Source: Pseudomonadota bacterium
GTDB taxonomy: Bacteria > Pseudomonadota > Alphaproteobacteria > MPNO01 > UBA2964
Length of the DNA stretch: 39,462 nucleotides
Reading direction: 5' to 3'
Assembly: GCA_027624735.1 (NCBI GenBank)
Contig: JAQBTY010000003.1
Span: 1 to 39,462, forward strand
A program made the translations under genes and the position numbers. Numbering within the stretch: position 1 is the stretch's first letter; every line of letters begins with the position of its first letter. This document shows positions 19,207 to 39,462 of the stretch, piece by piece. Under the pieces are notes generated by a model that made no database searches, was not told the DNA's origin, and was given only the letters and a program-made list of their open reading frames with translations.

Positions 19207-21597
19207 GTGACATCTGACCTGACCGAGACGGAGCTGCGCGACATGGCTGCGCGGCAACCACTGGAAATCCTGCTGGACGACGCCGGCCGCCTGCGCGATT
19301 CCGGACATGGCAGGCTGATTTCCTATTCGCGCAAGGTTTTTATCCCCCTGACCCATCTGTGTCGGGACGTTTGCCGCTACTGCACCTTCGCCCACCCACC
19401 GCGCGAAGGAGAAGCCGCGTATCTGTCGCCGGACCAGGTGCTGGCCATCGCCCGCACCGGGGCCAAAGCGGGCTGCAAGGAGGCGCTGTTCACGCTTGGC
19501 GACAAGCCGGAGCTGCGCTATCGCGCCGCGCGGGAAGCACTGGACGGTCTTGGCTTTGAGACCACGATTTCCTATCTGGCGGACATGTGCCGGCTGGTAT
19601 TCGAGGAAACCGGCCTGCTGCCCCACGCCAATCCCGGCGTGATGAATGCGGCGGAGCTCGCCGCCCTACGGGAGGTCACCGTATCGCAGGGCATCATGCT
19701 GGAGAGTACGTCTTCGCGGCTGTGCGAACCTGGCGGGCCGCATCATGGCTCGCCCGACAAGGATCCGGCGATCCGCCTCGCCACCATCGAGGAAGCCGGC
19801 CGCCAGCGCATCCCGTTCACCACCGGCATCCTGATCGGCATCGGCGAGACACGGGAGGAACGCCTCGATGCGCTGCTCAGCCTCCGCGCGTTGCATCGCA
19901 CCTACGGTCATATCCAGGAAATCATCATCCAGAATTTCCGCGCCAAGCCAGCAACCCAGATGGAAGGAGCAGCGGAGCCGGATCTCGAGGATCTCCTGTG
20001 GACCATCGCCATCGCCCGCCTCACCTTTGGCCCCAATATGAATATCCAGGCGCCGCCCAATCTCAGCCGTAGCGATTACCCCAAACTGATCGCCGCAGGG
20101 TTGAATGACTGGGGCGGAATTTCCCCGGTTACGCCGGATCACGTCAATCCCGAAGCGCCCTGGCCAGCGATAGACTCTTTGCGCGCCAACACAGAAGCAG
20201 CCGGCAAGCAGCTGGTTGAACGGCTGGCGGTCTATCCGGAATTCGCCCAGAACAGCGAGCAGTGGCAGGATTCGACTATCGCGCCCGCTATATTGCGGGC
20301 CATCGATTCGGACGGGTTGGCGCGGACCGAGGATTGGGCGCCGGGGCTGGACCTCCCCATTCCAATGATCGCCCCACCCACCGAAAGGACCGACCCCGCG
20401 ATAACGAAACTGCTGGATCGAGCCAGCGCCGGAAGTGCGCTGAGCGAGACCGACATTGTCCAACTGTTCCATGCCCGCGGCGCTGATTTCGACGCCGTGT
20501 GCAGGTCTGCCGATGCGCTGCGCCGCTCCATCGTCGGCGACCGCATCACCTATGCGGTCAACCGCAACATCAACTACACCAATATCTGCACCTATGGCTG
20601 CCGCTTCTGCGCTTTTTCGAAAGGCCCGCGACGGGAATCGCTGGGTGGCGTGCCCTATCTGCTCGATCTGCCGGAAATCGCCCGCCGCGCGGCCGAGGCG
20701 TGGGACCGCGGCGGCACAGAAGTCTGCATGCAGGGCGGCATCCATCCGAGCTTCACCGGCGACACCTACGTGGCGATCTGCGAGGCGGTCAAACAAGCCG
20801 CGCCCGACATCCATATTCACGCCTTTTCACCGCTCGAAGTCTCGCAGGGCGCGGCGACGCTGGGTATATCGGTCCCCGCCTTCCTCGACAGGCTGCGCGC
20901 CGCGGGGCTAGGCTCGCTGCCCGGTACCGCGGCGGAAATCCTGGACGACGATGTCCGGGCGGTGCTGTGCCCCGACAAGCTTTCGACAGCGGAGTGGCTA
21001 TCGGTAATCGAAAGCGCCCATGAGGCAGGATTCAAAACCACCGCCACCATCATGTTCGGCCATATGGACTCACCGGCCTCCTGGGCGCGGCATCTGATCG
21101 CCATCCGGGATCTGCAGAAACGAACCGGCGGCTTCACCGAATTCGTACCCCTGCCGTTTGTCCATATGGAAGCGCCGCTTTACCGCAAGGGCCAGGCCCG
21201 GCGCGGACCGACCTTCCGCGAGACCGTGCTGATGCATGCGGTGGCGCGGCTGGCGCTTCATCCGCACATAACCAATATCCAGACTTCGTGGGTCAAGCTC
21301 GGCGCCGCCGGCGCAAAAGCCTGTCTCGAAGCGGGCGCCAATGATCTCGGCGGGTCACTGATGAATGAGAGCATCACCCGGGCGGCGGGGACAGAACACG
21401 GTCAGGAATTTGCACCGACTGCCATGGAACAGGCAATCCGGGATCTCGGCCGCGAGCCATGGCACAGAACGACACTCTATGGCGATGCTTCGGCGGAGCG
21501 GCGGCTGGCGGCAAGAAACGCACCGCCGCTGGTCGATCTGCTCATCACGAGGGTTCCGGCAAAGACGGGGATGCGCACAGCCCCGGCCGTGGCTTAG
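19207..21597 (+). CDS. fbiC: fused 7,8-didemethyl-8-hydroxy-5-deazariboflavin (FO) synthase, CofG-CofH fusion
   Basis: GTG start. N-terminal radical-SAM motif CRDVCRYC (CofG half) and C-terminal NRNINYTNICTYGCRFCAF (CofH half), both CX3CX2C; about 796 aa. Confidence 0.96.
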   Translation: MTSDLTETELRDMAARQPLEILLDDAGRLRDSGHGRLISYSRKVFIPLTHLCRDVCRYCTFAHPPREGEAAYLSPDQVLAIARTGAKAGCKEALFTLGDKPELRYRAAREALDGLGFETTISYLADMCRLVFEETGLLPHANPGVMNAAELAALREVTVSQGIMLESTSSRLCEPGGPHHGSPDKDPAIRLATIEEAGRQRIPFTTGILIGIGETREERLDALLSLRALHRTYGHIQEIIIQNFRAKPATQMEGAAEPDLEDLLWTIAIARLTFGPNMNIQAPPNLSRSDYPKLIAAGLNDWGGISPVTPDHVNPEAPWPAIDSLRANTEAAGKQLVERLAVYPEFAQNSEQWQDSTIAPAILRAIDSDGLARTEDWAPGLDLPIPMIAPPTERTDPAITKLLDRASAGSALSETDIVQLFHARGADFDAVCRSADALRRSIVGDRITYAVNRNINYTNICTYGCRFCAFSKGPRRESLGGVPYLLDLPEIARRAAEAWDRGGTEVCMQGGIHPSFTGDTYVAICEAVKQAAPDIHIHAFSPLEVSQGAATLGISVPAFLDRLRAAGLGSLPGTAAEILDDDVRAVLCPDKLSTAEWLSVIESAHEAGFKTTATIMFGHMDSPASWARHLIAIRDLQKRTGGFTEFVPLPFVHMEAPLYRKGQARRGPTFRETVLMHAVARLALHPHITNIQTSWVKLGAAGAKACLEAGANDLGGSLMNESITRAAGTEHGQEFAPTAMEQAIRDLGREPWHRTTLYGDASAERRLAARNAPPLVDLLITRVPAKTGMRTAPAVA

Positions 21598-31435: not shown

Positions 31436-33838
31436 TTGCTGTGGGAAGAGTTCTTAATAATCGTGTTTCGACATTGGCCAAGACTGGCGATCAACCTCAT
31501 CGCGGTGTCCGTGTTCACGGCCGGATGTGTCGTCACGCCCGACCCGATTGAAAATCAGGGCCACGTCGAGCGATCACGGCAAGATTTGAGCAAACTACGG
31601 TCGATCGAATTCGTTCCGACAAAACCAATAAAGCTGCATGAAGCCATGGCGCGCGCGGTCTCCTTTAATCTCCGACACCGCGTTGCACAGATCGAGCGCG
31701 ACATCGCCAACGCCGAGCTGGAAAAAAATAATTTCGAAATGCTCCCAACGTTTGACCTCAACGCCTCTCGTGACAGAAAAAACGTCAACATTTCAAATAC
31801 CGACGATCGCATATCCAATACAGCGAGCGCGACCTTTGCCTGGAATATACTTGATCTTGGCGTTAGCTATGCACGCGCCAACCAGCAGGCGGATGAAGTG
31901 CTCATCAAGCAGGAACAGGAACGCAAGGCTCTGCAAGATATCATCCGGCAGGTGAATGCTGCCTTTTGGCGAGCCGCGGCCGGCCAGCGGCTTCTGACAA
32001 AGGTCCATTCCATCGCGCGCGATCTTCAAGTTGCCATGGAGGCATCCCGCGAAATGGAGCGCACAAGAGCAACCGACGTTATTTCCGCGGTTTCGTTCCG
32101 GCGCACGATCGTTGAATCGGTCAAACAGGCCCTCGCCATCAGGCGCGAACTGCAGGAAGCAAAGTCGGAGCTTGCCGAACTTCTCAATATCCGACCGGGC
32201 ACGGACTTTGAGCTGGCACAGCCGGCAATGAACGTCAGTTTGCCCCGGCTCCCCATGTCGATTGAGAATCTGGAGGTTTTCGCCCTGGAGAATCGGCCGG
32301 AACTTCGTGTCGAAAAATATAATGAGCGTATCGGCAACTGGCAGGCGCGCGAAGCCTTATACAATTTGCTGCCTGGACTGAAGGTCAGCGCCGGTCAGAA
32401 CTACAACAGCGAATCGGCCAATCTGTCTCCAAACTGGATCAGCACCGGCGTGAATATGGGCATGAATTTGTTCAGTCTCTTTTCCGGATCCAGTGAATAC
32501 GAGATTGCCGAAGGCAAGGCAGAGCTGGCGCGCCGACAGCGGCTTGCCCTGTCACTGGCCGTATTGACCCAGGTGCATATGTCACGGATCAAATTCCAAA
32601 GCGCGGCGCAGCAAATGCGCCTGGCGCACGAGATCGCGGAATCCGACCGGTCGTTGACCCAACTGCTGCGCACCGACGGGCAGTTTCTCAACAACGATTA
32701 TTTCGAAGCGGTTAGCCTGTCGACCCAGCAACTTCAGTCGGAGATGAACGAACAGCGTTCATACGTGGATCTGGTGTCGGCCCATGCGGACCTCATGCAT
32801 GCTGTCGGGCTAGATTTGTTCCTGGACACCGTGCCTTTCAACGACATTCCCGCGCTCAGCGACGCTATCCGGGCGATGATGGCGCAGTGGACCATATCCG
32901 ACGGAACCGCGACGGAGCCAGCCATCGCCCTGCCACTGGACCAGTTGGTCAACAGCATGATTTCGGTGGACAGCCGCGCTGATACTTTGATCTCTACGGC
33001 AACAACAACTCACCCGGCAATACATCTGTCCAGGAAGACAGGTGCGTCGCCTGCTGAAACGCTTTTCACAACGGGCATACGTGAAGAAACCGAACTTGCG
33101 GCATCACTGCCGGAAATCTTTCGGCCGACCAGTCAGACCATATTAAATGATCGCCAGCCTGACGATATGGATGGGGCACCCGAAAGCGGCCAAAATACCG
33201 GCGACATCTCACCGATCGGCGCGGCGCGGCGCAATAGCGCACAGCCAGAAAATGACCTGCCCCCTGAAACTATCGAGAAGCTGAATAAAATTGCCCCATC
33301 GAGCCAGGCTAATCCCTCTGAGACAACGACAGACGTCGTAGACCGGAAAGTTCCTATTCGGCCGCTAAAATTAGGGCCACCCTCTACAAGCGGCGGCCGG
33401 GATGAGACACCGGCAACGAGCCAAACCACCGTCGGGAACACACGGGTCAGCGCAAAAAAACACAACGGCGCACTATCGAAAAAAGACCTAAACCGGGCAA
33501 CCGTCGAACGGATGACCAGAATTAGGCGGTCGAGCCCGGTCAATCCCTCGGAGACAAGGTCACACCCCGTCGACTGGGAATTCTCTACTCAGTCTCTGAA
33601 ATTAGGATCACGTTATACAGTCGGCGGCCGGGATGAGACCGCAGGAACCAGCCAAACGCGCGTCAGGAATTCACCGGCCGGCGCGGCAAAACACATCGGC
33701 ACACAGCCAAAGGAAAACATCATCCCAGAAACCATCGAGCGGCTGAACGGAATCGCGCCATCGAGCCGGGGCAATCCCTCAGAGACAAATCCAAAGCCGA
33801 TCGTCTGGGAATTTTTCGTTCCGGCTTCGAAATTGTGA
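31436..33838 (+). CDS. TolC-family outer-membrane efflux protein with N-terminal lipobox-like signal and repetitive C-terminal tail
   Basis: LAINLIAVSVFTAGCVV lipoprotein-like signal; KPIKLHEAMARAVSFNLRHRVAQIERDIANAELEKNNFEMLPTFDLNASRD...FAWNILDLGVSYARANQQADEVLIKQEQERKALQDIIRQVNAAFWRA. Alternative GTG start at 31463 (MFRHWPRLAINL). Confidence 0.87.
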   Translation: MLWEEFLIIVFRHWPRLAINLIAVSVFTAGCVVTPDPIENQGHVERSRQDLSKLRSIEFVPTKPIKLHEAMARAVSFNLRHRVAQIERDIANAELEKNNFEMLPTFDLNASRDRKNVNISNTDDRISNTASATFAWNILDLGVSYARANQQADEVLIKQEQERKALQDIIRQVNAAFWRAAAGQRLLTKVHSIARDLQVAMEASREMERTRATDVISAVSFRRTIVESVKQALAIRRELQEAKSELAELLNIRPGTDFELAQPAMNVSLPRLPMSIENLEVFALENRPELRVEKYNERIGNWQAREALYNLLPGLKVSAGQNYNSESANLSPNWISTGVNMGMNLFSLFSGSSEYEIAEGKAELARRQRLALSLAVLTQVHMSRIKFQSAAQQMRLAHEIAESDRSLTQLLRTDGQFLNNDYFEAVSLSTQQLQSEMNEQRSYVDLVSAHADLMHAVGLDLFLDTVPFNDIPALSDAIRAMMAQWTISDGTATEPAIALPLDQLVNSMISVDSRADTLISTATTTHPAIHLSRKTGASPAETLFTTGIREETELAASLPEIFRPTSQTILNDRQPDDMDGAPESGQNTGDISPIGAARRNSAQPENDLPPETIEKLNKIAPSSQANPSETTTDVVDRKVPIRPLKLGPPSTSGGRDETPATSQTTVGNTRVSAKKHNGALSKKDLNRATVERMTRIRRSSPVNPSETRSHPVDWEFSTQSLKLGSRYTVGGRDETAGTSQTRVRNSPAGAAKHIGTQPKENIIPETIERLNGIAPSSRGNPSETNPKPIVWEFFVPASKL
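33218..33838 (+). repeat. direct coding repeat, 231-bp (77-aa) period, about 2.7 copies
   Basis: Anchor words recur at exact 231-bp spacing: ACT/ACC of (T)IE-LN at 33269, 33500, 33731; CGGCGGCCGG at 33391 and 33622; GGCGCGGC at 33218 and 33680 (2 x 231). Confidence 0.92.
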
Positions 33839-33895: not shown

Positions 33896-35236
33896 CTACC
33901 GTTCGGAAAAGGCCCTGTCTAGAGACTGGAAGATAGGCCGCAGCAGATACCGCAACAGGGTGCGTTCCCCGGTGATGATATCGACCTCGGCCACCATGCC
34001 GGGCAGAACCAAATTTTCACCCGGTTTATCGCCGACATAATTCTTATTCAGCTTGATCTCCGCCCGGTAGTAAATTTCGTCCTGACGGTCCTTGAAGGTC
34101 GTGGCGGAAATCTTGGTGACCTCGCCTTCCAGCTCGCCAAACCGCGCAACGTCAAAGGTGGTCACTTTGACAGCGGCCTTTTGGCCGGGCGATATATGGC
34201 CAATATCGATCGGCGATACCCGGGCTTCGACAACCAGTTCCTGATTGACCGGTACGATTTCCGTGATGAGCCCGCCGGGTGTGACGACGCCGCCTATGGT
34301 GTGGACGGTCAAGCCCTTCACGATACCGCGAACCGGCGCGCGAACATCGACCCGCGCCGCACGGTCCTTCGCCCGGACAATGAGTTCACGTATACCAGCC
34401 ATCTCGGCGGAAATCTTGCCTGATTCGCCGAGAGCATCATTGTGCCGCGATGAATCAAGACGTTGCATCTTGCCACTGGCCTCCTCTATGGCACTTCGGG
34501 CGCGGTCAATTTTACCTTTGATCTCGGCGCTCTCACCGACGGCGCCCTCATAGTATTCAAGGGTCTGCAAATAGACGATCCTCGATACCAGGCCGCGCTT
34601 GACCAGCGATTCATGCATGTTTTTCTGTTTGGCCAGATTGGCGATACGGCTTTTGAGCCGGCTGGCCTGACGCCGCAGCACATCAAGCTCTGATTTGCGC
34701 TGGGCACGCTGAAACAGCAGTACCTCTCGCTCGTTTGCGAGCGCCTGGTTTTGCTGGCGCAAGATCGCCAGTTCCTCGCGGACGCTTAACTGGTGGCGCG
34801 CCTCTATATGATCGAACTTCGGTTTGCGGTTCTCCGCGAAGGCACGCAGCCGTTCGCGGCGTGTCTCCAGCGCCGCGTAGCGGGCTTCCATTTCGTCCAA
34901 CTGAGCGAAGGACGTCGTCGAGTCAAGCCGCGCCAGAACATCGCCTTTTTCCACCAGGTCGCCGTCACGAACCAGGATCTGGGAAACGATGCCCCCTTCG
35001 AGGTGCTGAATCGCCATGACCGAACCGCTCGGAACGACCTCGCCCGATGCCTTTGTGGTTTCGGTCAGGGTGGTTATGGCAGTCCATCCGATAAACACGA
35101 AGATGCTGAGCGTAATCGTCAGCAGCAACAGGCGGACGATCCTTGGCGGACCGACTTCTTCGAGAATGACCGATTGGGACAGGTGCCGCAGCTGACGGGC
35201 GTCGCCAAGGCGGGAGGGTGAAATCGGGCTGCTCAT
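33896..35236 (-). CDS. HlyD-family type I secretion periplasmic adaptor
   Basis: TKASGEVVPSGSVMAIQHLEGGIVSQILVRDGDLVEKGDVLARLDSTTS; coiled coil; VRAPVRGIVKGLTVHTIGGVVTPGGLITEIVP; LLRYLLRPIFQSLDRAFSER. Confidence 0.93.
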   Translation of the reverse strand: MSSPISPSRLGDARQLRHLSQSVILEEVGPPRIVRLLLLTITLSIFVFIGWTAITTLTETTKASGEVVPSGSVMAIQHLEGGIVSQILVRDGDLVEKGDVLARLDSTTSFAQLDEMEARYAALETRRERLRAFAENRKPKFDHIEARHQLSVREELAILRQQNQALANEREVLLFQRAQRKSELDVLRRQASRLKSRIANLAKQKNMHESLVKRGLVSRIVYLQTLEYYEGAVGESAEIKGKIDRARSAIEEASGKMQRLDSSRHNDALGESGKISAEMAGIRELIVRAKDRAARVDVRAPVRGIVKGLTVHTIGGVVTPGGLITEIVPVNQELVVEARVSPIDIGHISPGQKAAVKVTTFDVARFGELEGEVTKISATTFKDRQDEIYYRAEIKLNKNYVGDKPGENLVLPGMVAEVDIITGERTLLRYLLRPIFQSLDRAFSER

Positions 35237-37404
35237 TGCTTCAGCGCACCGTGCAGATCCAGGGCATCCGCCGGTTTTCCATAATACCGAACCCGGCCAT
35301 TTTCGAGAACCATAAGATGATCCGCGACCCGCAAATGACTGGGCCGATGCGATACCACGATGATTGTCGTCGAGCCGCGAAACTTTTCTATCGCCGCCAG
35401 GAAAGCGGCATCACCCCGTTCATCCAGCATCTGTCCTGGTTCGTCGAACAGAAAAATCGTCGGCTTGCGTAAATACGCCCGGGTAAGAGACAGCTTCTGC
35501 TTGAAGCCCTCTGGCAGTTCCGCGACCACCGTCTCGGTCAAGCGTGTTTCATAGCCGTGCTGCAGGCCCAAAATCGCTTCATGAACGGCGGCTGTCTTTG
35601 CCGCCTCGACAATATCCTCGTCACTCGCCCACGGGGTGACCAGGCGAAGGTTCTGCGAGACCGTGCCGTAGATCATCTCACTGGTTTGCGGCACCAGACC
35701 GATATTCTGCCGGATGTCGATCGCGTCCATCTGCCTGACGTCGATCCCGTCGATCAGGACGGCGCCCATTTGCGGGCGGTAGAGCCCTGCCGCGAGATTC
35801 AAAATGGTCGATTTTCCCGCACCGTTGGCGCCGGTTATCGCCAGCACCTCTCCTGGCTCCACGGAAAAGCTGACCCCGGAAAGCGCCGGATCGGCGTCGG
35901 GTGTATGACGGAACGCCACGTTGCTGAACGAAATGCGGCCGCGATAGCTCAATTTCGGCGGAATGTGACCGGGCAGCCGCTCGGGCTTCAGCTTCATCAA
36001 GTGGTTGATCTGACGCAACGTGGCGCGGATCTGCGTCGCCCGGTTCAGCAACGTGAGCAGCGACTGGAATGGCCCCAGCACACGCCAGGATAGGGCCATG
36101 GAGGCGACCAGCGCGCCGATCGTCAGAGTCTTGTCCATGACCATGATCGCGCCGAATCCGACCATCGCTGTTCCAGCGCCGAGCAGGACGCTTTTGCCGA
36201 TTGTCTGCATGGTTTGATTGATCATGGCTACGCGGAAATCGCCAATGGCGGATTCCGCTGAAATATTGCTGAAACGCTTCAGCCATACGGTTTCGGCGCC
36301 GGCGAATTTTATTGCCCGCATCCCAGAAACCGCCTCGATCAGAAACCGTTGCTGCTGTGTCCTGCCTTTCGACACCTGGCCGTAGACCCGCCTGACAAAC
36401 GGTGAGGCCAGCATCGCGCCAGCGACAAGAATCACCGCCGCCAGAATCGGAACCAATACCAGCCAACCGGCCAGCACCGTGATGACCGCGGCAAATAAAA
36501 CGGCAAATGGTATATCGATCAGCGTTTCGCCCAGCGGGCCCGCGAAAAACTCCCGCACCGATTCGAATTCCTGCAGGTGAGAGACTTGCGCGCCCAGCGG
36601 TTCGTTCTCTGTCATTGCAATGGGCATCATCAATACCTGACGAAATCCCGCCGTTCCGATGATGTAGTCGATGCGGCCTGCCGCGTGGGCCATGGTGAGA
36701 GAGCGGAAACGGCGAAAGACCCATTCAAATCCAAGTGCCGAACAAACCCCCAAAAATAGCAGAATAAGCTGATCGACCGAGCCGGAAGGAATGACGACAT
36801 CGTATATGGCCATCATAAAGAGGGGCATTGCCAGGCTCATGAGGTTGACCATCAGCGTGATGACCAGAACCTGAAGAACAAGCTTGCGGAAACGGATGAA
36901 CAGCTCCGCCATCCAGGCCGCGCTATCGGATTGAAGGGGTCTCTGATCGGTGCCCTGTTTCAAGACATAAGCCGTGCCGCCGAGATTTTCCCCGGAAATG
37001 GTTTCCTTGGCGCGGGACGCGCCGTTGAAGACCCGGTAGCCGCCATCGTCGTTCCGCCCGAGCACCACACAGACAGACCCCTTATCGGGCACGAACAAAC
37101 AGGGCAGAAGACCGGGATTGAGGCCATCAAGCCCGATCTTGACGGCGACGGTATTGAAGTTGAGGTTGGCGAGCGTGCTCCTGAAATCCTCAAGATCAAG
37201 TGCATCGATAAAATGCGGCAGGGATTCCGATAGATGGCGCGCCCGGCCTGACCAGCCGAGAGCCTCCAGCAGCGGCACGAGACAGGCGCCGTAATCCGAT
37301 ATATCGTGCTCGACGTTGGCGCCGAACCCGCTCAGAATGCGGAGCCCGGCCGCCATCCCGACGTCAGCACGAGCGTCGCCCGATAGTGTGGCGGCAGCGG
37401 TCAT
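35233..37404 (-). CDS. type I secretion ABC exporter with degenerate C39-like N-terminal domain
   Basis: N-terminal DYGACLVPLLEALG C39-like segment; ABC membrane domain; Walker A GANGAGKST; Walker B TIFLFDEP; H-loop VSHRP; 4-nt overlap with hlyD. Confidence 0.92.
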   Translation of the reverse strand: MTAAATLSGDARADVGMAAGLRILSGFGANVEHDISDYGACLVPLLEALGWSGRARHLSESLPHFIDALDLEDFRSTLANLNFNTVAVKIGLDGLNPGLLPCLFVPDKGSVCVVLGRNDDGGYRVFNGASRAKETISGENLGGTAYVLKQGTDQRPLQSDSAAWMAELFIRFRKLVLQVLVITLMVNLMSLAMPLFMMAIYDVVIPSGSVDQLILLFLGVCSALGFEWVFRRFRSLTMAHAAGRIDYIIGTAGFRQVLMMPIAMTENEPLGAQVSHLQEFESVREFFAGPLGETLIDIPFAVLFAAVITVLAGWLVLVPILAAVILVAGAMLASPFVRRVYGQVSKGRTQQQRFLIEAVSGMRAIKFAGAETVWLKRFSNISAESAIGDFRVAMINQTMQTIGKSVLLGAGTAMVGFGAIMVMDKTLTIGALVASMALSWRVLGPFQSLLTLLNRATQIRATLRQINHLMKLKPERLPGHIPPKLSYRGRISFSNVAFRHTPDADPALSGVSFSVEPGEVLAITGANGAGKSTILNLAAGLYRPQMGAVLIDGIDVRQMDAIDIRQNIGLVPQTSEMIYGTVSQNLRLVTPWASDEDIVEAAKTAAVHEAILGLQHGYETRLTETVVAELPEGFKQKLSLTRAYLRKPTIFLFDEPGQMLDERGDAAFLAAIEKFRGSTTIIVVSHRPSHLRVADHLMVLENGRVRYYGKPADALDLHGALKQ

Positions 37405-39095
37405 GCAAACTCCCGCTGTATTCGATCGATCGATCCGCGCGCGTCTTCAGGGGCTTTATGCACCCCATGATCGCGGATGACATAGCGCGTGTCCGCGAGT
37501 TCGAGGAACGATGGGCGGTGGCTGACAATCACCAGGGCGGATTTTCCGCGGTAGTATTTGAGCAGTTCCAGCAGGCGGGTGTCGCTGTCCTGATCCAGAA
37601 ACGTATTGGCTTCATCGAACAGGATGAGTTGGGGATTCTCGACCAGAGTAAGCGCGCGGATCAGGGCGATACGCTGGCGTACACCGCCGGGCAGCCCGTC
37701 ATTCGCGGCGTGTTCGACCCGCGTTTCATAGCCGTGCGGCATACGTCCCACCGCCTCGTGCAGCCCCAGCTTCTCCGCCATGATAAGAGCGTCGTCAATA
37801 TGGGAATCGCCGCGGAACATGGTCAAATTGTCCATCAACGAGCCCTGGAACAGAACCGGCTGCTGCGGCAGATAAACCACCTGAGAGCGCAGGCTCACCG
37901 CGTCATGCTCCCAGATATTCTGGCCATCGATAAGCACCTGGCCGGCGGAGGGGACATGCAGTCCCATGATCAGCCCTAGAAGCGTCGATTTTCCCGATCC
38001 GTTGGGGCCGCTCACGGCAATGGTTTCGCCGGCGTTGAAGTGAAGATTGACGTTCTGGAACAGCGCATTTTCCTGCTGCGTATAGGAAAAGGTGACATCT
38101 TTCAGGACGACGTTCCCCGCGATCCGGTGCAGGGCGGGCGCCTCGGGCTTGGATTCAAGCGGTAATTGCATCAGGTCATCGACCTGGTTGCGGGTAACCC
38201 GTGCGTTCTGAAACTGGGTCCAGGTCGCAACGGCCCGCATCATCGGCTGCGCGGAGCGGCTCGCAAGCAGGGTACAGGCGGCCAGCGCCCCGATGGTCAG
38301 GGCGCCGTCGATAACCATCGTGCTGCCGTAGGCCCCGACAGCGATTGCCGTCAGTTGCGAAAAAACCTGACCGGTGTTGCGGCTCCACGTACTGGCGTCC
38401 GCGAACAGATAACTCGCTTCCGCCGAACTCGCCTGCAGCCGTTCATAACGGCGGACCATCATCGCCTCCATGCCCAGCCCCTTGATGGTATGGATGGTTT
38501 TAAGCACTTCGATGATGAAGTTGTACCGGCGATCATCGGTCTCTCTTCTGAGTTTGAGCGCGGCGCTTACCCGTCGTCCGGCGATGGCCGCCGTCATACC
38601 CAACAAAATCAGAACGATGACCGGCACGACGGCCAACGGCCCCGCTATCAACCCGATCAGGAGAAAAAACAGCAGCGCGAAGGGAAGATCGACAATCAGC
38701 AACAGGGACTGGCCGGCAAAATGGCTTTTGACGGAATCAATCGCCCGCAAACGCTGAATGTGAACGCCGGGCGGCGATGCGTCGAAGGCACGCAGATCTG
38801 ATTTGAAAATATGGCCGACCGCGTCGCAGGCCATTCTGTGCTGCACCCGCGCCGCCGTCCAGTTTGAGATGTAGGCGCGCCCGAGACTCAGGATCATATC
38901 CAGGATCAGAATGAAACCCAGCGCGACCACAAAAATAGCCAGTGTCTGGTTTGAATTATTGGGAATAACGCGGTCATAGACCTGCAATATTGTAATCGGC
39001 AAGGCCAGTGACAGAATATTGATGGCGCTCGACGCAGCAATCAACTCCGCGCGGTGGCCACGCAGGATATCGAATTTGGGTGCTGCTTTTGTCAT
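37401..39095 (-). CDS. type I secretion ABC exporter lacking an N-terminal C39-like domain
   Basis: KFDILRGHRAELIAASSAINILSLALPITILQVYDRVIPNNSNQTL; Walker A GPNGSGKST; GLPGGVRQRIALIRAL; Walker B LILFDEA; VSHRP; 4-nt overlap with the downstream ABC gene. Confidence 0.92.
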   Translation of the reverse strand: MTKAAPKFDILRGHRAELIAASSAINILSLALPITILQVYDRVIPNNSNQTLAIFVVALGFILILDMILSLGRAYISNWTAARVQHRMACDAVGHIFKSDLRAFDASPPGVHIQRLRAIDSVKSHFAGQSLLLIVDLPFALLFFLLIGLIAGPLAVVPVIVLILLGMTAAIAGRRVSAALKLRRETDDRRYNFIIEVLKTIHTIKGLGMEAMMVRRYERLQASSAEASYLFADASTWSRNTGQVFSQLTAIAVGAYGSTMVIDGALTIGALAACTLLASRSAQPMMRAVATWTQFQNARVTRNQVDDLMQLPLESKPEAPALHRIAGNVVLKDVTFSYTQQENALFQNVNLHFNAGETIAVSGPNGSGKSTLLGLIMGLHVPSAGQVLIDGQNIWEHDAVSLRSQVVYLPQQPVLFQGSLMDNLTMFRGDSHIDDALIMAEKLGLHEAVGRMPHGYETRVEHAANDGLPGGVRQRIALIRALTLVENPQLILFDEANTFLDQDSDTRLLELLKYYRGKSALVIVSHRPSFLELADTRYVIRDHGVHKAPEDARGSIDRIQREFA

Positions 39096-39260
39096 CGCCT
39101 GATATGGCCTAGATCACTTTCGATGGATACTGCCGGTCGCAACCACATAATCGCTCGTCGCCGCCCCGCTCGACCCCACTGCGATGAGCCCCGAAGTTCT
39201 AACTCACTGAAAATCAGTACATTTATTACCGACCGTAGAGTGCAGAAGCGGGTTAAATAT

Positions 39261-39272
39261 TTGGTTAACCAA
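39261..39272. promoter_or_regulatory. perfect 12-bp palindrome upstream of the ABC-ABC-HlyD operon, possible operator
   Basis: TTGGTTAACCAA, 166 bp upstream of the start codon of the first ABC gene; function unproven. Confidence 0.35.
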
Positions 39273-39462
39273 GTCAGAAAATCGGGGCCTGACATACAGC
39301 GCGGCGATGGCCGGTAGCAGCCCGGCGACCCGGACGCTCCCTACGAAACAGCGCCATCAGTACAAAACGTCGGAACGCGGGGTAATTCACGACAAATTTG
39401 TAATTGCTCACCCTGGGTGTTCCGGAAGGATCTGCGGGTGGTGTTTTTCGCTAACTTGGCAT

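Follow-up and report, generated by a model that had tools for sequence, protein, structure and literature searches.

The subject of this analysis is a pair of ATP-binding cassette (ABC) exporter genes, abc1 and abc2, in a 39,462-nucleotide (nt) stretch of alphaproteobacterial DNA (contig JAQBTY010000003.1 of assembly GCA_027624735.1, Pseudomonadota bacterium), here called the window. The window is one entire contig of a 4.42-Mb, 515-contig assembly and stops 367 bp upstream of abc1. The exporters of type I secretion systems (T1SSs) are taught as homodimers; the comparisons presented here argue for a motor built from two different subunits.

The exporter operon

The genes, junctions and flanking sequence are as follows.

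37401..39095, minus strand: abc1, 564 aa, type IV ABC exporter half with transmembrane domain (TMD) and nucleotide-binding domain (NBD), without a C39-like domain (CLD)
35233..37404, minus strand: abc2, 723 aa, exporter half with an N-terminal CLD
33896..35236, minus strand: hlyD, 446 aa, type I secretion membrane fusion protein (MFP)
37401..37404, minus strand: 4-nt stop/start overlap of abc1 and abc2
35233..35236, minus strand: 4-nt overlap of abc2 and hlyD
31436..33838, plus strand: TolC-like outer membrane factor (OMF) with an OEP domain, much extended at its C-terminus; the gene converges with the exporter operon
39096..39462, no strand: gap between abc1 and the contig end, on the upstream side of abc1

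These coordinates agree with a preliminary description of the same DNA, in which two different ABC exporters and hlyD were joined by 4-nt overlaps. Pfam finds ABC_membrane and ABC_tran in both ABC1 and ABC2, and the best NCBIfam model for both alike is TIGR03375 (T1SS LssB)—ABC2 scores 501 bits and aligns from model position 5, ABC1 scores 411 bits and aligns only from position 152, and neither reaches the curated cut-off of 693.1 bits. As its late alignment start shows, ABC1 lacks the N-terminal domain; the alignment ranges bear out the earlier claim that only the 723-aa protein carries a CLD. HlyD exceeds the cut-off of TIGR01843 (382 bits), and the TolC-like protein matches PF02321 in two stretches (Pfam, 1e-28) and TIGR01844 under its cut-off (4.6e-13); homologues of the latter protein adjoin the ABC pair in two related loci (L053 and L058). 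Judged from these matches, the T1SS gene set of ABC exporter, HlyD MFP and TolC-like OMF is present at the locus.

Pairing of the two exporters across relatives

Relatives were sought in 27 genomes of the order, 385 of the class and 399 of the phylum. The window protein alone gave no matches when used as a query on genome contigs; an alignment of natural fusions (described below) worked as the query. Scores for ABC1 are bimodal, with family members above ~530 bits and other T1SS exporters at or below 476. Named relatives with the family include Azospirillum and a metagenome-assembled genome of the Rhodospirillaceae.

Wherever an ABC2 locus has upstream sequence, ABC1 lies beside or directly upstream of ABC2 (83 of 83 loci; three further ABC2 loci are cut by contig ends and stand outside this count). 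The pair is split into two genes in 63 loci and forms one open frame in the other 20, and no relative carrying one subunit alone was found among the 83. Of the 63 split pairs, 41 share the 4-nt abc1/abc2 overlap of the window, and 74 of the 83 loci have HlyD downstream. The co-occurrence that the preliminary description named as a check was seen throughout, each pair being adjacent or fused.

Individual loci show some variation in layout. In L163 (942-2753) and L166 (6487-7793), 1.3-1.9 kb separate ABC1 from ABC2, the stretch in L163 holding an unrelated 603-aa frame. In the closest relative (G013, L053:6325-8019), the abc1 frame is interrupted by an in-frame TAA into 243 and 288 aa, through either sequencing error or decay. 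Some ABC1 proteins from the second class of the phylum carry C-terminal extensions of ~180-520 aa past the NBD (L148:11456-13765, L149:10910-13570 and L158:1-3150).

Phylogeny also separates the two subunits: ABC1 and ABC2 form two clades, each with a Shimodaira–Hasegawa-like approximate likelihood ratio test (SH-aLRT) support of 100, apart from 19 single T1SS exporters. The inner branching of the two clades is mirrored, and their pairwise distances correlate at 0.943, as against 0.785 and 0.791 with the HlyD of the same operon. A distant pair (L195, G274:C2; 564 and 688 aa) divides between the ABC1 and ABC2 clades on long branches, which suggests that the two-ABC clade extends beyond the present sample.

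Natural fusions of the two subunits

The 20 fused frames are ~1290-1390 aa long and run in the order ABC1, CLD, remainder of ABC2. Seventeen of the 20 belong to the second class noted above, with named members in the Magnetococcales, including Candidatus Magnetaquicoccus inordinatus UR-1; one lies in the window's own class (G069), and two are annotated as single coding sequences on Azospirillum plasmids:

AZOLI_RS22950 (WP_244442643.1): fusion of Azospirillum lipoferum 4B
AZL_RS33650 (WP_148219661.1): fusion of Azospirillum sp. B510

The Azospirillum fusion genes adjoin HlyD and giant Ig-like proteins. Since the fusions sit in two separate places of the tree, fusion arose at least twice.

A structure model of a Magnetococcales fusion, cut to 1200 residues, has a predicted local distance difference test (pLDDT) score of 63 and a predicted template modelling (pTM) score of 0.45, and aligns with the whole of single-chain ABCB1/P-glycoprotein at a template modelling (TM) score of 0.6-0.64 over ~1270 columns. 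The alignment is consistent with a single transporter made of two halves, although the model is weak and the fold by itself would lead one to expect such a match.

The C39-like domain of ABC2

The single CLD of the window pair belongs to ABC2:

36955..37305, minus strand: CLD of ABC2, ~residues 34-150, with a Tyr-type position for the catalytic Cys and without a catalytic His

The DYGACL motif is present as previously stated, and the places of the catalytic Cys and His read Y and V/C. ABC2 therefore lacks both residues by which a peptidase-containing ABC transporter (PCAT) is recognized, and the domain is a predicted non-peptidase. The preliminary description was right about the Tyr and the missing His motif; the feature is, however, not unusual. 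No aligned family member has a Cys at the catalytic position, and because HlyB itself has Tyr9 there (PMC8277102), a missing Cys is nothing out of the ordinary in an RTX exporter.

An AlphaFold2 model of ABC2 (mean pLDDT 70.5, pTM 0.39; CLD pLDDT ~61-85) has full-length HlyB, chain A, as its top fold match in the PDB, over 688 columns that include the CLD. Most CLDs of the family retain two cysteines, Cys41 and Cys102 in ABC2 (motifs ACL and LPCLF), despite the absence of the catalytic one; the two may be structural.

Asymmetry of the ATP sites

Each ATP site of an ABC dimer is formed by the Walker A, Walker B and H-loop of one NBD together with the signature motif of the other (PMC7756269). 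The corresponding motifs of the window pair are:

37662..37694, minus strand: ABC1 signature motif, LPGGVRQRIAL
35485..35517, minus strand: ABC2 signature motif, LPEGFKQKLSL
37590..37628, minus strand: ABC1 Walker B and D-loop, LILFDEANTFLDQ
35419..35457, minus strand: ABC2 Walker B and D-loop, IFLFDEPGQMLDE

Walker A, the catalytic Glu and the H-loop are intact in both window subunits, and the motifs DEPGQMLD and DEANTFLD are present in the pair. The signatures, earlier singled out as atypical, read as quoted, but they characterize the family at large and are not particular to this pair: Gln5 of LSGGQ is missing in 160 of 160 family subunits and present in 18 of the 20 single T1SS exporters used as controls. 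All 20 controls retain Lys, Glu and His, and nearly all retain LSGGQ.

Across 80 pairs, counted per locus, loss of the core motifs is lopsided. The Walker-A Lys, catalytic Glu or H-loop His is lost from ABC1 in 58 pairs and from ABC2 in 14 (two of the latter being truncated sequences); loss is confined to ABC1 in 47 pairs and to ABC2 in 3. The second Gly of the signature is lost from 30 ABC2 and four ABC1 subunits, ABC1 keeping it in 76 of the 80. Because each site combines both NBDs, the site made of ABC2 core and ABC1 signature is conserved and the site made of ABC1 core and ABC2 signature is degenerate—a pattern suggesting that in the family one ATP site works and the other has degenerated. 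The proposal of unequal ATP sites accordingly holds for the family, and is less certain for the window pair with its intact core residues; as that pair keeps all of them, its own asymmetry lies in having one CLD and in the signatures (LPEG versus LPGG).

Putative cargo and its C-terminal module

The gene upstream of abc1 in relatives is divergent from it, commonly starts within ~60-900 nt and often encodes more than 2200 aa. These divergent neighbours carry cadherin and/or RTX repeats, with Ig-like domains in Azospirillum; in the closest relative the neighbour is a 987-aa cadherin/RTX protein. Two such proteins are found elsewhere in the window's own genome:

G000:C55:9743-11305 (L219): RTX/cadherin protein, cut by the contig end
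G000:C341:9403-10872 (L220): RTX/cadherin protein

The divergent gene expected next to abc1 may be the C55 copy. A 52-codon open reading frame (39307-39462, plus strand) runs off the contig end, and may or may not be the start of a cargo gene. Other strong exporter matches checked in this genome, including those on contigs C77 and C50, proved to be MsbA-like and were rejected as second T1SS exporters, so the window pair is the only T1SS exporter found there.

The RTX/cadherin proteins share a C-terminal module of ~60 aa with the consensus WT..L..G...LS.DAAGTITL.DGS.ITFEG.E.IE, and no Pfam or NCBIfam model matches the module itself above cut-off. Among the 385 genomes of the class, the module occurs in 27 of 44 genomes with the pair and in three of 341 without it (p=1e-26); when the genomes used to build the module are left out, the figures are 19 of 36 and three of 341. 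It often lies on contigs other than that of the exporter. We infer that the pair exports RTX/cadherin adhesin-like cargo, and that the ~60-aa module is probably its secretion signal.

A probable obligate heterodimer and its alternatives

The inner-membrane motor is very probably an obligate ABC1–ABC2 heterodimer of a T1SS. The asymmetric heterodimer of the preliminary description gains its support from the 83/83 pairing, from fusions in at least two lineages, and from a degeneracy that would make most ABC1 subunits unfit as homodimers.

Several points weigh against this reading. In the window pair, Lys, Glu, His and Gln are retained in both subunits and DE is present in both, and each subunit could in principle hydrolyse ATP. 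The motif tallies are of loci and not of evolutionary events, and pair by pair there is no link between motif loss in ABC1 and loss of the signature Gly in ABC2 (Fisher p=1). The cargo gene lies outside the window contig, and three genomes carry the module without a detected pair, the module being near a contig end in two of the three. Finally, the structure models are single-chain and of moderate to low confidence.

The retained core residues would also suit two independent homodimeric exporters in tandem, each working alone on a different cargo, and tandem duplicates are common in bacteria. We consider this very unlikely: none of the 83 loci has a single subunit, one-chain fusions have arisen repeatedly, and one hlyD serves both genes. 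Furthermore, most ABC1 subunits have lost catalytic residues, so that homodimers of ABC1 would be inactive.

In another proposal, ABC2 would work as an ordinary homodimeric exporter, regulated by ABC1 as an accessory or decayed ATPase; motif decay is indeed found mostly in ABC1, and the cargo-docking domain is only in ABC2. However, ABC1 is present in every locus with a full TMD, keeps the signature Gly in all but four pairs, and is the first half of fusion chains that resemble full transporters of the P-glycoprotein type. In a homodimer, moreover, the degenerate ABC2 signature would serve both sites. We regard the proposal as improbable, much as we do tandem homodimers.

A bacteriocin or ribosomally synthesized and post-translationally modified peptide (RiPP) exporter pair of the NHLM type, which also has two ABC proteins and HlyD (NCBIfam TIGR03796, TIGR03797 and TIGR03794), was rejected in place of an RTX adhesin T1SS as scarcely credible, on scores far under the cut-offs (203-255 bits for the ABC proteins against 709-853 for TIGR03796/TIGR03797, and 84 against 156 for HlyD), with no active C39 peptidase and with large RTX/cadherin proteins as the putative neighbouring cargo.

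Proposed mechanism

In the heterodimer as we envisage it, the ABC1 and ABC2 half-exporters would be co-translated and pair into one translocation pathway. With the gene set read from sequence, the pair would assemble with HlyD and the TolC-like channel, probably as three ABC1–ABC2 dimers and six HlyD after the example of HlyB/HlyD. As only ABC2 brings a CLD, there would be one docking or chaperone domain per dimer for unfolded cargo, a role suggested by HlyB. ATP hydrolysis would occur mainly at the ABC2-core site (Walker A, Walker B and H-loop of ABC2 with the signature of ABC1), and the ABC1-core site may be ATP-holding or structural, as in TM287/288 or TAP.

Relation to known systems

The closest precedent is the MARTX system RtxB/RtxD/RtxE of Vibrio and others, which likewise has two different ABC exporters and one HlyD. 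Both RtxB and RtxE are needed for MARTX secretion (PMC3034196), and an RtxB/RtxE heterodimer has been suggested (PMC4316617); both fall in the Group 2 clade, and their genes flank the MFP gene in the order B-D-E (PMC4316617). Here, in contrast, the order is abc1-abc2-hlyD with the ABC genes adjacent or fused, one subunit is without a CLD, and the cargo would be RTX/cadherin adhesin-like; the comparison with MARTX is through the literature only. MARTX thus already provides the idea of a T1SS with two ABC proteins; the present clade is distinguished by its gene order, its CLD-less subunit, its fusions, its unequal ATP sites and its cargo module.

HlyB/HlyD/TolC shares the CLD with Tyr for Cys, the TMD and the NBD, and HlyB is the best fold match of ABC2; HlyB, however, is encoded by a single gene and forms a homodimer whose two ATP sites are equal, whereas here the genes themselves would provide for one CLD per dimer. 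The LssB/LapB-type exporters are the group whose NCBIfam model fits both subunits best, and their large RTX adhesin cargo resembles the putative cargo of the pair. Those exporters are homodimers with a canonical LSGGQ, whereas ABC1 and ABC2 form separate clades and score under the 693 cut-off.

Outside the T1SSs, the heterodimers TM287/288, TmrAB, TAP1/2 and BmrCD are alike in having core loss in one subunit and a signature change in the other (as defined in PMC7756269). They move drugs or peptides, and the window pair differs from such degenerate-site heterodimers in keeping both catalytic Glu residues. P-glycoprotein (ABCB1) has the same layout of two halves in one chain as the ABC1-CLD-ABC2 fusions, which differ from it by the CLD between the halves and by HlyD in the operon.

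Other features of the window

The C-terminal extension of the TolC-like protein (~370 aa; 32640-33838, plus strand) contains recurring peptide phrases of the form IERLNxIAPSSxxNPSET, and no DNA repeats of ≥30 nt were found in it. Over-long OMFs of 673 and 896 aa also lie next to the pair in relatives (L053 and L058). Further away, a 796-aa protein (19207-21597, plus strand) resembles a fused FO synthase, having two Radical_SAM stretches and, at its C-terminus, a CofH/MqnC domain.

Implications

The locus is likely to represent a widespread, unnamed T1SS clade of Alphaproteobacteria and Magnetococcia, with an obligate asymmetric heterodimer, one docking domain, one hydrolysing site and its own cargo module. 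A literature search, with most subscription papers outside its reach, found no description of this clade.

In the structure of HlyB/HlyD, one CLD only is visible in the transport-competent dimer (PMC9751043). If the heterodimer is real, the conformational asymmetry of the HlyB homodimer would here have been made genetic—one CLD per dimer is fixed, and one ATP site is decaying. The clade thus bears on whether a T1SS dimer needs both ATP sites and both CLDs, since the role of each half is open to study through one gene, or one half of a natural fusion, at a time, for example in Azospirillum. The ~60-aa module, in turn, would help in tracing which proteins the clade exports.
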